Notes under the pieces: generated by a model | The model's database searches: none | The model's input: only the letters and a program-made list of their open reading frames with translations | Told to the model about the DNA's origin: nothing | Position numbers and translations under genes: made by a program | Assembly (NCBI GenBank): GCA_002794785.1 | Contig: NBBA01000011.1 | Span: forward strand, 1,550,001 to 1,614,000 | DNA: 64,000 nucleotides | Reading direction: 5' to 3' | Source: Coniferiporia sulphurascens | Lineage: Eukaryota; Basidiomycota; Agaricomycetes; Hymenochaetales; Hymenochaetaceae | In this document: positions 33,498 to 62,825 of the stretch, in pieces | Layout: each line of letters starts with the position of its first letter | Position numbering within the stretch: the stretch's first letter is position 1

Positions 33498-34722
33498 CTA
33501 CTCTATCGATATGATCCCATGCATAGTAGAAAACCAATAGTTCACCATGTCTGCAAAATCGCGACAGGCAGCGTAGCGATGTTCGAAAAAGACGGGCTTC
33601 AAGAGGGAAAACGTTATTCTGGCATTGGCTTCTCCGGTCTCACCATATGTGACACTGAAGCTGTTCAAGGCGAAAGGGTCAACTGATAGTGGGAGAGACC
33701 TTTGACTTGCGTCAATGTGCTTTTGGACATTGCTAGTGTCAAGGGATATGACCCAGGTTTTCCTGTCACCGATCCAACGGTCCTCGAAGCGGAACGACGA
33801 GTCTGGATCCCTCTGATCCTTGCTTGTAATGATCGTCTCCATATCCCAGCCACGTCTCTCATACTTCGAGATTGCTTGCTCGTACCTGACCTCCCTTGTC
33901 TGACATATGAGTCCGCGTCTTTCTTCGAACGTTCCCTTGGGAAAGAGAGAGTATGCGGCACAATATGTTATAACGTTCAGTACGACCGCTGATTGTTCGT
34001 AATGGGTGAGAGGGAATGAACACAATGATTAGGATGACTTCTTAATGACGCATACTTGTGTACTTACTAGAATGGTAGGTTAAAATACAGTCTGCGGGCG
34101 AGCGCATCGAAACAATTACTTGTATATAGCGGGTGTCTGCTCCAGACTGGGTCGTCGAGCGGAAATTAAAGATATGTTGGACGTTATCCCGTTGATATTC
34201 CCCCTCTGGCCAATAGGATACTTCGTGATCTATGTCTTCCTGGGTTTCTTCCCGCAGGGAAATTCTCCTTGAAACATTCTCCATGGCGACTTCATAGGCC
34301 TCGGTATTGTACGGGTAAGGTGCTCGCACAAAGTACTCGTACCCTTTTCCGCCGGAGGTCATTATCCACTTGCAGACTCTATGAGCATGGGGCCAAGCCA
34401 CGTAGATGTCTAGGTCCGACTTGTCGTACAGCGTGTGGTCCATGAACTGCGGAGCCGTGGAGCCAGATATGACTGCTTGGGTTTGCGCCTGGAGAATACG
34501 GAACCCAAGTGGGTCGGTAAAGTAGCGGGACAAACTCTTGTTGATGCCAAAAGCGCGACTCTCATAGTCCCTCACGGAGCGACGAGCTAGTTGACAGGTC
34601 CTACCCAGACGGAAGATGGTCGCGGGTGTGCAATGTCCGAAAAGACAGTCGTACGTGGCATCTCTATCGATAATTCTGGTAAAGGCGGGCTCTTGCAGGG
34701 CGTTTTCCTTGTCGTCAGCCAT
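33498..34722 (-). CDS. F-box-like / nucleotidyltransferase-like protein A
   Basis: Two exons, 34722-34068 and 33988-33498, joined in phase 1, give 381 residues. The N-terminus (about residues 15-60) has an F-box-like helical block, YDCLFGHCTPATIFRLGRTC. Around residue 90 comes VISGSTAPQFMDHTLYDKSD followed by LDIYV. This is a GS...DxD arrangement like the active-site strand of nucleotidyltransferase folds. The second exon has VVLNVITYCAAYSLFPKGTF, FEERRGLI and WIGDRKTWVISLD. The intron sits exactly at the HS|TAVVLN junction, as in copies B and C. This family is very expanded in mushroom-forming fungi and its function is unknown; the NTase reading is inference from the motif. Alanine in the common GSTAL is kept, but the next residue is proline (GSTAP). 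Confidence 0.75.
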
Positions 34723-35164
34723 GAGAGAGGGAGCTAAGATAAAAGGTCATCAGTTCAGGGGTTCTTATATGCTCAGACCCTAGGCTGTGGCGACTGCGGC
34801 GTGGGGTCCATTAATACCTAAGGGTCCGAACCGAGCAACAGCGAAAAAAAAGAAAGAAAAAAGGGGACGAGTTTTAAATTCGGAGAAATCGCAGATGAAC
34901 GCTGCCAAGTTCACATTTATTCGAATCTGTAGATCATATTCTACAAGCCAAAACTGAAATGCAGCGGGACATGGAGCGTTCGTTGTTGTGTCTCTTCTCC
35001 CGCAAGTCTTGAGTCCTACGTTTATCTCATGTTTGAGATTCATGACATGTTGGACAATTACTCGCAATTCTGGATGAAGTCCCGCTTCAATTTTACTAGG
35101 AACAAGTCGGACCTGACGAAGGCATTTATTAGAAGTCTCCAATACACCCAAACCCCAGGAACAC
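34723..35164. other. Spacer between F-box/NTase-like genes A and B
   Basis: Upstream region of gene A and downstream region of gene B, about 440 bp. No conserved frame is seen. Confidence 0.45.
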
Positions 35165-36389
35165 CTACTTCCTCTTGTTAAAAGGCCGCTTGTATTTATG
35201 TATCATGGCGAACCAGAATTTCATCATTTCTGAGAACTCGTAGCAGGCAGTATAACGGTATTCAAAGAAGCTAGGTTTCAAAAGATAATAATCTATTTGG
35301 ATTGGAGTGTCGGTCGGGCCATTCATAACACTGAAGCTGTTTAAGGTGAAGGGGTCGACCGAAAGTAAAAACCATCTGCGAGATGAGCTAATCTGCCAAC
35401 CAACTTGGCTCATGTCAAAGGGGATGATCCAGGTCTTCCTGTCACCGACCCAACGATTCTCAAGGCGGAATGATGAGTTCGGGTCCACTTGCTCCCTATT
35501 CGTAATAGGCGTCGTATCCATCTTCCAGCCGCGATTTTCATACTTCTCGATAGCCTTTTCGTATCTTTGCCCCTTTGCGCGGCATATGAGGGAACGCCTT
35601 TCTTCAAATGAACCTTTGGGATATAGGGAGTACGCGGCACGATATGTTATGATGTTCAGTACGACAGCTATTGAACAGATGAGTTAGTCGGGACGTGGCA
35701 CTTCGGTGTGAGCTAGCGTACTCACTAGAGTGAAAAGTAAAGATAGAGTCTGCAGGAGAGCGCACTGTAACGATTACTTGTATATGGAGAGGATTCACCC
35801 CGGCCTGAGTCGCCGAGCGAAAGTTAAAAACCCAATGGATATTGTTCCATCCATACTCCAATAGTAATGGCGGCAAACCAGATACCACAGTGTCAATGTC
35901 TTCAGAGGAAGGTATATCCAGATTCGTGACTTCTTCCGCAACTTTCTCCAAATAAGATTCGTAAGTTTCCGTCCCATGTGGATCTTTAGGCACGAAGTAT
36001 TCATATCCTTTACCACCGGAAGCCATTATCCACTCGCAGACTTTGGCAGCTTGTTGCCAAGATACGTAGATATCCAAATCAGATTCTTCATACAGCGTGC
36101 GGTCCATGAATTGTAGAGCCGTAGAGCCGGATACTATCGCCTGTGTCTGCGCTTGGAGGACGCGAAATTCAAGCGCGTTGGTGAAGTAGCGAGAAAAGTG
36201 CTTGTCAATGTCGAAAGCACGACTCATGTAGTCTTTTACGGAGCGATATACGAGTCTGCAAGTCCTGCCCAGGCAGAAGATGGTCGCCGGCGTGCAATAT
36301 CCGAAGAGACAATCGTAAATGACATCTCTGTTAAAGATCCCATTAAAACCGTGTTCTTCATCAGAATCCAAGTCCATGTCTATTTCCAT
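35165..36389 (-). CDS. F-box-like / nucleotidyltransferase-like protein B
   Basis: Two exons, 36389-35726 and 35667-35165, give 388 residues. It is a tandem paralogue of gene A in the same orientation. It shares the F-box-like YDCLFGYCTPATIFCLGRTC, the NTase-like VSGSTALQFMDRTLYEESDL with DIYV, and in exon 2 YPKGSFEERRSLI and WVGDRKTWIIPFDMS. The N-terminus is more acidic (MEIDMDLDSDEEH). The intron position and phase are the same as in A, which supports both models. The ATG at 36389 is about 60 bp from the edge of a LINE insertion that may have displaced or disrupted its promoter. Function is unknown. Confidence 0.75.
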
Positions 36390-36449
36390 GTCTTTGACTG
36401 TGCTTGAGGCTGTTTGCTTAAGCTTGCTGAGAAAGGTGTAATAGTGCTA

Positions 36450-36463: not shown

Positions 36464-38167
36464 TTTTTTTTTTTTTTTTTTTTTTTTAAATGCATTTCTA
36501 TAGCGCATCATGACTATCTAGTACAAAATACGCTCCAGGGGCCTTTAGGCCCCTGTATTTGTGGGAGATGGTAGTTGGTATAAATGGAACAATAGTGACG
36601 GTAAGCTATCGGCTGAGATGGGAGCTGGTAAGGACACCAGTGAATAAAGAAATGCGGTGTCTGACTCAGTTGCCAGTGGCAAAACCCTGGTCAGAAATGT
36701 GTACCACAGTAGGGCCCCCCGGGTCAAAGACGAGGATGGGCTCCGCTTCGAAGGCGGGGTGAGAGTCGAGGAAAGATGCCAAAATTGGGAGGCCATCTTT
36801 AGAAAACCATTGGGCTTCGGTGGATGGTATGGGGGTCTTCCACACCGCACGTCTGGCGGGGAGGGTATTAGGGCAGGAGAGCAAGAGGTGTGCTCGAGTC
36901 TCTGGAACATGGCAGAATGGGCACAAGGGGTCGCGTCCCGGAATGCGTCCAAAGTATGCGCCAAAGCCGGCGTGACCAAGGAGTGTCCGGAAAACTTTGC
37001 ACTTAGTGCGACGACCGATTGTGAGGTTCTGCATGAGAGCAGACGGCTTCGTAGAAGGGTTCTGTGTGGCGCCCATGGAGTGGGCGTCCGAGCTCCCTCA
37101 GGATTTTCGGCAGGCGTGAGCCCAGTCGGATTTCCATTGAGTTAATGCTGTAGAGGAGGCGGCTTCCCGGAGGAAGCGGATGGTAGGCCTGACTAAAGGG
37201 TTCTCTTGCGAGGCCCACCAAACGACTACACCTTCCTCGGGATATGGGGTTCCCACGCCCCTCCCGCTGTCCCCCAGGTTACCCCAGGGCGTGTCTGCAT
37301 GTCAAGGAATCAACTTAAGCAATGCAGTGGGAATTACCCCCACGCATACCCATGGCAGATTTAGTACTCTGCGGCCGATGAAGGGAACTACCCCCCACCG
37401 CCCCGGCTCGCCCTTTCACGACGGAGAAGCCACTACGCCCAGAAGGCCATGAGGACTAACACCCTAGCCGCTACTTAGGTTTCCCGATTCCCCGCATGCG
37501 CTTCAGACCCCGGGTTTAACCCCAGAGAATATGTGGTTAGACTTAGTCGCCCCACTTCTGGATCCGCAGCATACGGGGATTACCATGTCGCACAGGTGAC
37601 CCCAGTCCCCTATCATCGGGAAGACCAAGGAGTTTCCCGTACTAACCACCTAAGGACGCTCCCACAGGATGATCCGAAGGCCCGTGGTGACCTGTCTCTA
37701 GCCACCCTTCCACAGCGTCGGGTCAGGGGCATTGAGTCGGTTGGTTCTTACCGCTACGCCACGTGTTATGAGACCCCTATTCCTAGGCAAGATGCCGTCA
37801 TCAGAACCCTTCCGGGATTTGGGGTGGCAGTTTTTACTGTCAGTGCCAGGGACAGTGGGGTCCCCCGAAGGAGATTGCTCGGAACAAGCCGACCCCCTGG
37901 GGACAAGGATGATGTCCGCCGGACCACCTCTCCCCTGAGGACGTTAACGTCGTGTCCTCACCGACGGGCAGGCTAGTGCGCCTCTCTCGTGCCGTTGGCT
38001 AACCCGCTGGCATGCTAGAGCCGAGAACTCACACACAGACGGAGAGCCCCCCCTCCCCACCAGAGCCAACCCTCAGACGGGCCAGATAGCGAGGGACGAA
38101 CTACAAACCCCCCCAGCGCCCCTCCTAAGCGAAGGAGATGGTGGTGGTAAGAGAACAAGAAGGGATG
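36464..38167 (-). mobile_element. Short non-LTR retrotransposon (LINE) copy, minus orientation
   Basis: A 1.7-kb insertion bounded by a perfect 14-bp target-site duplication. On the minus strand it ends in a run of 25 A (plus-strand T at 36463-36487). Near this 3' end the minus strand codes (37076-36666) for KVFRTLLGHAGFGAYFGRIP and CPFCHVPETRAHLLLSCP, the zinc-finger-like CxxC...H...C block found at the C-terminus of reverse transcriptases of fungal non-LTR elements. No RT catalytic core is present. The remaining 0.9 kb or so (37230-38167) is GC-rich and has no long minus-strand frame. The copy is therefore non-autonomous: either 5'-truncated with an unusual 5' part, or internally deleted. 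Confidence 0.8.
36536..36555 (-). other. Perfect hairpin in the LINE 3' region
   Basis: Eight-base-pair stem CAGGGGCC / GGCCCCTG with a four-base loop, about 50 bp from the poly(A) run. A 3' stem-loop like this is a plausible recognition structure for reverse transcription; that role is inferred from other LINEs. Confidence 0.7.
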
Positions 38168-58319: not shown

Positions 58320-60323
58320 ATGCCGGACGACATGGAGAGCTTGCCCTTGAGCGATAAAGAGAGCTGCCGCTTTACGGATATCATCGACAGAGACGCTATC
58401 TACGACTGTCTTTTCGGATACTGCTCACCAGCAACCATCTTCCGCTTGGGTAAAACGTGTCGACTTGCACGTCGCTCCGTACAGGACTACACTAGACGTG
58501 CTTTCGACGTTGATAAGTGCCTTTCGCGATTCTTTATTGATCCCCTTAGTTTTCGCATCCTCCAGGCGGAGACGCAGGCGGTCGTGTCTGGCTCTACGGC
58601 ACTGCAGTTCATGGTAGTGTTCTCAAGGGTCGGGTCGGGTCAGGGCATTTTTTGCCCGACCCTGACCCTGACCCGGGTCAGGAATCCCAGCTTGGGCTGA
58701 CCCCCGACCCGACCCCGGTTGGCCCGCTGCTGACCCGACCCGCAGTAACAACTGCAGTACAAAATTTTATTAGTACTAATGCTAATGCCGGGTAGTAGCA
58801 TTAATAATAACAACTAGTATTAATTCTAATGCCGATTAGTATTATTACTAATAACACTTTGTTAGAGTGTTGCACTGGTAACAGTGTCAATACATTGATG
58901 GCTAATGCTGGTTGCTAATTCTAGTACTAGTGTCAATACAAAAAACTGTACACTGGTGCTAGAGTTCTGATAGGACTAAGGCTAAATGCTGTCTTGACTT
59001 GAAGCCGAAGTATTTATGCTTTAGGGTAGGCTTCATTTTGTTCAGGGCCGGCAAAGTTTACTAAAAAGTGGGCATACTTCTACCCAATAAAGTCACGTGC
59101 CGGGTCGGGGTCGGCCAGGGTCGACCCCGGGTCAGGTAGGGTCGGGCTTTGCTGGCTGGAGCCGACCCCCGACCCGACCCACTTCTGACCCCCCTGACCC
59201 GACCCGCTGCTGGCCCGACCCGCGGGTCGGGTCAGGGGTCGACCCGGGGTCGGAGCGGGTCAGGCCCGACCTTTGAGAACACTAGTTCATGGACCGTACG
59301 CTGTATGAAGAGTCGGATCTGGATATCTACGTGCCCTTATCCCGGACCGCTGAAGTGTGCGAGTGGGTTGTGGCCTCCGGTGGCAAGGGATATACATACT
59401 TTGTTCCGGAAGCCCAGGACGATCGTACCATGACCTACGAAAACGCTTTGGAGCTTTTATCAAAGAAAAGCACTATCCTGAGCATGACCTCAATGGGCAT
59501 TGACCACCGGCAGTTCCTTTGGTCGCCAACACGGTATTGCTCGGCTAGATGGGTTTTGAACTTTCGTTCGACAACTCAGACCCCGGGTGTGGATCCTCTC
59601 CGTATACAAGTCATTGCTGCTGCACGCTCCCCTGCGGCTACTATTCTGAATTTTCATTCCAGTAAGTGCGTACATCAGCATTTCGAGGCTGCTTTCTGAC
59701 TTTTCGGCGTTTCCTCGGTCCTTTTACCCTCTTGCCGCGCACTGACAGCCGTCGTGCTGAATGCTATAACATACTGCGCCGCGTATTCCTTGTATCCCAA
59801 AGGGACATTTGTGGAAAGGCGTGGTCTCGTGTGCCGTGAATCTGACGTTGGACGTGAAGAGGCGATCACAAAATATGAGGGACGCGGTTGGGAGTTGGAG
59901 ACAGCGCCTATTAGCAATGAGGAGCGGGCTGACCTGAACTCGGCGTTCCACTTCGAAAACCGTTGGATCGGTGACAGGAAGACCTGGGTTATTCCCTTCG
60001 ATACGAGCAAAATTAATCAGCACATGAGCTTAAATCGTGGATCATTCACTCTCCCGCTCTCGTCTTTGATTGACCCCTTTACCTTGAATAGCTTCAGCGT
60101 AGAGGAAGGACCTATTGATACCTCTTTTGTGACGGCCTTCTCACTACTCAAGCCCTTCTTCTTTGAGCATTTTTATACTGCTTCTTATGAGTTCGCTGTC
60201 ACGTTACAGCCTTGGTTCACCATGATACGTAGAATGGGTATAATGAGTTGGAATAGTCCGTTTGGGGGACGAAAGTATGTCCCTTCCAGTCTTGACCGCG
60301 GTGTTGAGGCAAAAGACGTTTAA
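58320..60323 (+). CDS. F-box-like / nucleotidyltransferase-like protein C, interrupted by a MITE
   Basis: A third paralogue of genes A and B. The start MPDDMESLPLSDKE is chosen by position relative to them. The F-box-like block is IYDCLFGYCSPATIFRLGKT, and the NTase-like motif begins VSGSTALQFM (to 58613). A 670-bp transposon follows, then coding resumes at 59286 with FMDRTLYEESDLDIYVPL. A normal phase-1 intron (59662-59748) precedes VVLNAITYCAAYSLYPKGTF, WIGDRKTWVIPFDTSK and the C-terminus ending at 60323. If the transposon is spliced as an intron (58614-59285), the product is 414 residues with only two extra residues, FM, compared with its paralogues. If it is not spliced, translation stops at about 58700, before the DxD. 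No other lesion is seen. Confidence 0.7.
58607..58614. repeat. Left 8-bp target-site duplication
   Basis: GTTCATGG, identical to 59285-59292. Its final G forms the G of a GT donor with the first base of the element. Confidence 0.9.
58615..59284. mobile_element. hAT-type MITE inside a coding exon
   Basis: A 670-bp non-autonomous element. The ends are inverted repeats: left TAGTGTTCTCAAGGGTCGGG; right, read inward on the other strand, TAGTGTTCTCAAAGGTCGGG (one mismatch in 20). It is flanked by a perfect 8-bp target-site duplication, the hallmark of hAT transposons. The subterminal zones hold many GGGTCGGG/CCCGACCC motifs in both orientations and can fold back; the centre is AT-rich. There is no transposase frame. 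The ends create GT...AG splice dinucleotides with the flanking duplications. Confidence 0.9.
59285..59292. repeat. Right 8-bp target-site duplication
   Basis: GTTCATGG. Its first G completes an AG acceptor with the last base of the element. Confidence 0.9.
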
Positions 60324-62825
60324 CGCAAACAATTGCACAGGTTCGATCGGTTTCTCGTGAAATGGAAGGGGGAATTCATTAAGGATTCCACGCGGTAGCC
60401 GTAAGCAATATGATGGCGTCCTGTCAGAACGCGAAGGGCTAAAAGGGAGTCCATTATTAACGGGAAAACCAGAGAATACGAATCTCACAATTTCCAATAA
60501 AACTTTCTTTCTCTTGTTATCCGGCGTCATGGAGCTCGTCCATGTGCTTTGAATACTCCCCTTCTGTTGGTGTGGGTCAGGTTGTTTCGACAAGCACTGG
60601 CACAGTTTAAAGTGACGCTTTCGGTGAAGTTATCGGTGCTTGAAAGTGGGCCATTGACACCGTTTGACTATCTGTGTCTATACCATATATTCATCATGTG
60701 CATCAAACCTACTAAGTCCCATTCGCGCCGCGTGAACTTTCGACATACTGCGACCTCGATCGGTCGCTGTGCGTATAGGTGCAGAGGATGGAAGCCAACA
60801 GTGAGATCAGCCTAGGAAGGAGCCTGTTGACTTCAATTAGAAATCCTAGAGTTCATGTTCTAATTCGCCTGGCTGTACATATAAAATTTGTTGGAAATAA
60901 GCCATGTTTCTTCGGTGCTGCACGATCCCGGGATTCCCGGCAAGATACCCACATGGACATAGACAATTGGCGGCCGCGTCGAACTTGTTTTGCTTTCAAC
61001 CCAGGAGCGTCGTATCTTTACGTGCATATATAGCAGAAAATTTGGATAAAGTGGAGATTCCTTAGAGCAATGATGGAAATTGCAAACGAGGAATACAGTC
61101 AATCACCAGTCAATGGGACAGCACCAGTCAGTGAGACACTGGGCTAGAGAGTGCTATATCCATCCGATTTTCCTCATTATTTTTTCATTTTGCAACCAAA
61201 TGTGTACCTCTGGCCTTGAATAGAGTAAAGCAACCTAATTGAATGAGAAATGAGCAAGAAAAAGCGAAATCACCCATAAAATCCTTAAAATGGAGATTTA
61301 CCAAAAATGGTTAGCAAAACATAAAATCCAAAATATTATACATAGTCAACCCAATTCTACTGGGTTTCATCACAGCACAAAGCAGTAGCAGTTCAAAAAA
61401 ATAATCATTGTGATCAAAGAGGAAATGGTGGAGAAAAGGCCAAAATGAAAGGTGAGGGGCGGTTTCCCTGCCGCCACTGCAGATCATGTTCCTGTTTGGG
61501 AAATGAAAATTTGTCATCGCTTAACCTTTCCTTCCGTGTGTGGTAATCATTAATATTCATTTTGAAATATCGTGGGAACAGCCTGTCCCATTGAGTGGTG
61601 CAGGCTCAATTTCACCAGATTTTTCTTTTTAGCTATCTCTCTCTCAAATGTACTTTGTTTCCTCCCAAATTTTGTACAGTGATAGCCAGAATATAAATGA
61701 ACATGGATATATTTTTATTTTAAAAATATTTCTCACTGAACTGCGAGAATTAGCTTGTCTAGCTCCGGTGTCCCAATGACCGGTGATTGACTGTAGATCC
61801 TACGGCTTTGCCAGCAAGTTTCGGCACGTTCCGGTTCGGCAGCCAAAGAGCTACCTTTCTCTCTTTTTGCATTCGTTTCGGTCTGCAGTCTGCTTGCCAA
61901 ACATCCATGGAAACGTTCTCTTTTTTGTTGGGTTTCGTGCGCAATGCGGTATTCACAAGCCCAGCTGTCTGCCTTCATGTTTCTCTCGTTCGTCTGGAGG
62001 ATGAACGCTCCACGCGGTCTGATGATTGTGAAGATTCAAGAAACTGCTAATGTGTACCACCCCCTCGGATGAGAATTCTCAAGAGCAGTCCGTGGTTCAG
62101 CTGAGCTCTTCTCCGCCGTCGTCCCGAACATAGTGCCTGCTCATGTGTCGCTTCGCGATTGCTATCCAGCTTTTTCGATGCTTTGCGGACGCACATTTAC
62201 CGTGTGCACGCTTTTCATGACGGAGCTTGGGTCATGGTTCGCGCATCGATAGCAGGATCAGGTCTTCGGATGGGATAGAGAACCTCGCAAGGTTGCCTCC
62301 CCTCGTTCGCGGTGACTCGCTATTGCACAAAATTAGTGAACCTGTCGAAGTTCGCGTCGACTGTTCTCTGCACGCCGATATCTACCCGCAATGTTCGACT
62401 ATGATAAGCAGGCGTCTTAAAATCGAGGCTTCGCCCTATATGTCAAAAATCGGCTTTTAAATGCTCCCTTGTCTAAGCGTTTGCCTCGCTTAGGTTGGAA
62501 TTAAGGAAAGGGTGTCGATGCAAGGTTGAAGGACACACGTTCAACAAGGATGTAGCCCGACGTTACGGAGATTAAGTATTAAAACTGGTGTAATCAGGTG
62601 ACTCTGATGGCTGCGATACAGATTTCGGCAGATTGACGCGCGCAGCTCAGCATAAAACTTGTTGCAAGAAGGCAAGTAAAGCCCTGGTCTGTCTGCGCTG
62701 TTTGCTGATCACTACTTCATCGTGTTAGCGCTACAAATGCACCCTGCCGAGCTCGCAGGTAACCCGACTAGTTCTCTTTTCTCGAGTTATGTCTCTAAGT
62801 CTGTGTACACTTTTTTTTCGATGAA
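60324..62825. other. Gene-poor right flank
   Basis: AT-rich, short frames only. I found no conserved domain, RNA gene or repeat with clear borders. Confidence 0.4.

Follow-up and report, generated by a model that had tools for sequence, protein, structure and literature searches.

A 670-bp element (58615..59284, + strand) interrupts an exon of a nucleotidyltransferase-fold gene (gene C) in the window, the 64,000-nucleotide stretch of Coniferiporia sulphurascens DNA analyzed here. It most probably represents an ordinary recent hAT insertion that disrupts gene C, with the GT and AG at its borders a by-product. An earlier note on this DNA had instead read the element and its target duplication as a perfect GT-AG intron. 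The element itself was as that note described it. Its termini (TAGTGTTCTCAAGGGTCGGG / CCCGACCTTTGAGAACACTA) are 20-nt inverted repeats at 58615..58634 and 59265..59284 (both + strand), 95% complementary with 19 of 20 positions paired, and the 8-bp target site duplication GTTCATGG is exact on both sides (58607..58614 and 59285..59292, + strand). GC-rich subterminal repeats (GGGTCGGGTC / GACCCGACCC) are present and a long reading frame is not: only two frames wholly within the element reach 50 aa, at 57 and 59 aa. In being short, non-coding and bounded by DNA-transposon ends, the element is MITE-like. It also contains an AATAAA at 59086. The single mismatch between the termini need not be a post-insertion mutation because it is common to a second copy, at C2:1749857-1751641, whose end likewise reads CTTTGAGAACACTA.

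A DNA search of the 39.3-Mb assembly (31 contigs) returned at least 32 matching pieces, the window copy counted in. Among the matches listed, only one other piece of at least 300 bp is at least 95% identical to the 670-bp element, and these counts are lower bounds. The 12-base element end has 24 exact copies in the assembly, some of them probably chance matches. By pairing ends with flanking duplications, we called seven complete copies: that of the window (58615-59284, 670 bp, duplication GTTCATGG), C8:1271909-1273473 (GGTTGGAC/GGTCGGAC), C2:1749857-1751641 (GGTGACAG), C17:378149-378939 (GCTCAGAA), C1:1067428-1068124 (GGTGGGCG), C12:45192-52735 (CTTCAGAC) and C1:4353701-4354272 (GTGGTGGA). 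The duplication has the 8-bp length of hAT elements and is exact in six of the seven, displaced by three extra bases at C1:4353701, while seven of its eight bases match in the C8 copy. Because six further complete copies exist in the genome, each with its own 8-bp duplication, the element is not a product of chance.

The C12 copy spans 7,544 bp and carries a transposase-domain stretch. Its ends are the same 12 bases as those of the 670-bp element, with one base differing on one side, and between them lies a match to PF05699, the hAT dimerisation region (4.2e-6). Searching the genome for this domain gave two places, of which C12 was the better, read with one TGA inside. Because this 7.5-kb relative with the same short terminal inverted repeats carries a hAT transposase domain, the sequence comparison supports hAT membership of the 670-bp element, and the hAT origin claimed earlier is borne out. 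The family is like Ds-like non-autonomous hAT elements in its 8-bp duplication, short inverted ends, subterminal repeats and longer relative with a hAT dimerisation domain. It differs from them in having few copies among the matches listed (a lower bound) and in that the first 501 bases of the transposase-bearing C12 copy match only one other place in the DNA search, the C17 copy. An aspartyl protease match (PF00026, 1.1e-7, L052:4122-4625) was also observed between the ends of the C12 copy (loci L047, L052, L027) and may be part of a captured or nested gene.

Gene C (58320-60398, + strand) begins with coding sequence up to the predicted junction (58320..58613) and resumes after the element (59286..59661), the two parts forming a single first exon in the empty gene. 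An ordinary 87-bp intron (59662..59748, GTAAGT...GACAG), the next exon (59749..60274), an ordinary 66-bp intron (60275..60340, GTATGT...CACAG) and a last exon running to the stop codon (60341..60398) follow on the same strand. With the element spliced out, the gene model is open over 417 codons; this 417-aa model was chosen since its end agrees with the orthologue, the script having scored a longer last acceptor 'best'. Among public proteins, P0003 of Coniferiporia weirii (basidiomycete, Hymenochaetales) matched the gene family best; gene C is 79% identical to P0003 before the element (99 columns, P0003 residues 1-99) and 73% identical after it (124 columns). Two paralogues on the minus strand of the window, A (35607..36446, open frame with uninterrupted LQFMDRTLYEESDLDIYV) and B (34045..34746, open frame with uninterrupted PQFMDHTLYDKSDLDIYV), form a small cluster of related genes with gene C (33995-36446, minus strand; 58320-60398), and neither they nor P0003 have the insert.

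A Pfam search found no convincing family for gene C or its two window relatives. The P0003 structure model (mean pLDDT 86) has a strand at 89-91, a helix at 93-100 and a strand at 109-114, and G92, D108 and D110 are invariant across 39 aligned sequences. The fold search was weak, with none of its 309 matches at E 0.001 or better; among the best 50 of the 309, however, 48 are polymerases, nucleotidyltransferases or tRNA-processing enzymes, a count in which we take the FAM46 rows to belong, and the other two are complex I chains. The model thus has the strand-GS-helix-DxD-strand core of a DNA polymerase beta-like nucleotidyltransferase fold, which we assign to gene C as a predicted fold.

Homologues of the gene C family extend through other Agaricomycetes, and some are labelled F-box domain-containing by their sources. 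Among the public proteins listed by protein searches, none was similar enough to be from the same genome, the best being 57% identical to paralogue A and, with P0003 as query, the next best 55%. P0003 matches gene C and P0015, likewise of C. weirii, matches paralogue A; the two have neighbouring locus numbers and a 36,778-long contig is given for both, in keeping with a conserved neighbourhood of the two genes in that species. P0015 is a 626-aa public model that resembles two such genes in one, with a GS...SDLD motif in each, and may be an annotation join. Open frames were also observed at 36545-37141 of the window; they presumably resemble the end of a retroelement.

Because the target duplication is exact and the end mismatch is common to the C2 copy, no post-insertion mutation is visible in the duplication or the ends, and the insertion is apparently recent. 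A recent insertion would leave the gene without decay whether or not the element is spliced. The earlier observation that the rest of the gene shows no decay therefore stands, in that gene C is otherwise intact, but it is weak evidence for splicing.

We propose that the non-autonomous element was mobilised in trans, with a related copy such as C12:45192-52735 supplying the transposase, and recently entered the exon of gene C, making the 8-bp duplication on insertion. Given the ends TAGTG...CACTA, the presence of G at both ends of the target yields the border GT and AG incidentally. With the element retained, the gene C frame hits a stop at 58698. The remaining splice signals look random, so most transcripts would be expected to keep the element and stop there, or to end early, and the outcome would be a loss-of-function allele. 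Two kinds of nuclei per strain are part of the general biology of this fungal class, and the other kind of nucleus might carry an empty, working allele. This is compatible with a disrupting insertion; however, only one gene C locus was found in the assembly, and we regard a second, intact allele as possible but rather doubtful.

Host introns were inferred from chaperonin (CCT) genes by the joined length that agreed with the Pfam profile, and the +5 position was ignored in choosing. Of 33 pieces found, 24 were used, and 15 of 17 exon pairs gave an intron. Two exon pairs with gaps over 120 were excluded, as were the five pieces of the gene at C4:1615429-1617140, the genes at C14:1310095 and C1:3463744, which as single pieces offer no pair, and two further loci, C1:4909972 and C20:186097, for which an earlier round gave no sensible pair. 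One choice was a tie, between a C1 61-bp intron (GTACGT...CACTAG) and an equal-length candidate with A at +5. The two introns of gene C, picked by eye and then confirmed by P0003 (and thus not blind to +5), brought the reference set to 17 introns, from which a donor matrix was built.

Scored with this matrix, several GTs exceed the donor predicted at the element border, both inside the element (59026, 6.43 bits; 59068, 4.88; 58718, 3.11) and in the downstream exon (59296, 6.58). Weak or alternative splicing at such sites might partially remove the element and give a low level of altered product, as reported for maize Ds1, whose alternative splicing is named in the title of a paper cited by PMC3260210. 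However, those donors lie past the stop at 58698. Moreover, among the 28 GT-AG pairs listed near the borders (donors 58590-58639, acceptors 59240-59300), none restores the empty reading exactly, and all 10 pairs that are in frame add residues. We consider this kind of partial removal unlikely.

The intron proposed in the earlier note would arise de novo by removal of the 672 nt at 58614..59285 (+ strand; donor GTAGTG after ATG, acceptor CACTAG), the protein thereby gaining two residues (FM). Its sequence premises were confirmed: GT is present at 58614-58615 and AG at 59284-59285, the reading is open on both sides, and excision stays in frame and adds the codons TTC ATG. The frame is nevertheless automatic. 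Because the two duplications together hold 16 nt, two of which leave with the intron, and the empty site holds eight, any 8-bp target gains six nucleotides and keeps its frame, so the frame is no evidence for an intron. Given the ends TAGTG...CACTA, a target that both starts and finishes with G is enough to supply the GT and AG, as the earlier note had reasoned.

The other splice signals are poor. At +5 the predicted donor has T, as against G in all 15 inferred CCT introns (14 of 15 if the tie is reversed) and in both gene C introns, and its 672 nt compare with 50-87 bp in the 17 inferred host introns (50-72 for CCT). It scores -3.7 bits, ranking 82 of 129 GTs in gene C, and 62% of the 3,582 GTs on the window + strand score as high or higher, so that it is no better than a random GT; the 17 reference donors score 6.1 to 11.5 bits (2.7 to 10.9 leave-one-out). 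In favour of the intron, the contrary matrix was built on 17 introns only, and for two of these the orthologue's confirmation came after a choice made by eye. No CTRAY-type branch-site-like motif was found within 91 nt of the acceptor, the nearest being at 92 nt; in the two introns of gene C such motifs lie at 53 or 49 nt, with nearer ones at 7 or 21 nt. The acceptor itself may be acceptable, as CACTAG is used by one inferred 61-bp host intron, the tied choice. The suggestion that the ends fold to bring the splice sites together agrees with the strong pairing computed for the RNA (-331 kcal/mol, z -12.2 against 20 shuffles). In this fold the first and last G are unpaired and the adjoining bases lie in the terminal stem, and such pairing might either aid or mask the sites. 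Taken on these signals, efficient splicing of 58614..59285 is unlikely.

A spliced product would read LQFMFMDRT instead of LQFMDRT. Paralogue A and P0003 read LQFMDRT and paralogue B reads PQFMDHT, none with the repeat, and splicing would thus not restore the LQFM reading of the paralogues as had been claimed. We scanned 50 homologues (48 public proteins and the two paralogues) for the GS...SDxD motif and found it in 46, with no match in four. The spacing is 13 in 45 of the 46, a count that takes in 16 rows printed as 18 because the script started at an earlier Gly, and 12 in the remaining one; spliced gene C would have 15. In the P0003 model, the insertion point falls at the end of the helix between the Gly-Ser and the Asp pair, and even the spliced product may be impaired.

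Duplications with G at both ends on the contig + strand occur in three of the seven complete copies, and a fourth, CTTCAGAC, has them on the other strand. GT-AG borders on one strand are thus available in four of seven copies, as against 13% of window 8-mers (6.6% G...G, 6.4% C...C); the binomial P for at least four of seven is about 0.007, for a small sample whose pattern was examined after the fact. This hints at a family target preference for G...G / C...C sites, in which case, if real, the GT-AG borders would follow simply from the family's choice of sites. If splicing were true as well, every insertion of this kind would supply a ready-made intron candidate that is neutral to the frame. 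The same arithmetic calls for caution: TAG...CTA ends with a G-flanked 8-bp duplication give a GT-AG, in-frame junction without selection for splicing, and such features alone therefore do not show an introner.

The idea of transposon-made introns is already known. By the titles of papers cited in PMC3260210 (Dennis 1988, Wessler 1991, Giroux 1994), splicing as introns is reported for maize Ds and Ds1 insertions in exons. The present insertion is comparable in that a hAT element occupies an exon and its ends, or their vicinity, offer potential splice sites; however, splicing was reported for maize, whereas here it is only predicted and the signals are poor. Some introners, as described in the portion available of Gozashti et al. 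2022 (PMC9860276), have inverted ends and a duplication that contributes all or part of one splice site or of both, and they can bring in additional codons; the 670-bp element, with its predicted splice sites, resembles them in each of these features. The same portion names Pezizomycotina as the only fungal group carrying introners. Among titles and abstract openings, in a literature whose subscription papers were mostly beyond reach, we found no hAT- or MITE-made basidiomycete intron. If spliced, the element would extend transposon-made introns to basidiomycete hAT elements, with one caught near its birth, but a new intron of this origin, each splice site composed of one duplication base and an element end, seems to us quite improbable.

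Introners are also families present as introns in many genes (again as given in the available portion of that paper), whereas only one of the seven complete copies here, that of the window, lies clearly in a coding exon, as judged from open frames. The longest open frame over the empty site is 318 aa for the window copy, 139 for C8, 70 for C2, 99 for C17, 40 for C1:1067428, 60 for C12 and 104 for C1:4353701. An open frame with an F-box-like domain (1.3e-6) is found about 0.3 kb downstream of the C8 copy, which also adjoins another open frame and may sit in either a leader or a first exon. The C17 copy terminates an open frame of 95 aa that matches nothing in Pfam, and its coding-exon status is likewise undecided. 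The genome also holds partial copies that keep one end or neither, but placement in genes covered the seven complete copies. Among these seven there is no concentration in exons, the enrichment that the earlier note had proposed to look for, and no sign of a family multiplying as introns inside genes. With a +5 T, a length and a branch site unlike those of host introns, an automatic frame, a changed motif spacing and no concentration of copies in exons, the 'perfect' introner-like intron is not supported, and we judge removal of 58614-59285 as a de novo spliceosomal intron very unlikely.

Two of the complete copies, C8:1271909-1273473 and C1:1067428-1068124, each have an open frame no more than about 0.3 kb downstream, and the family may land near promoters.
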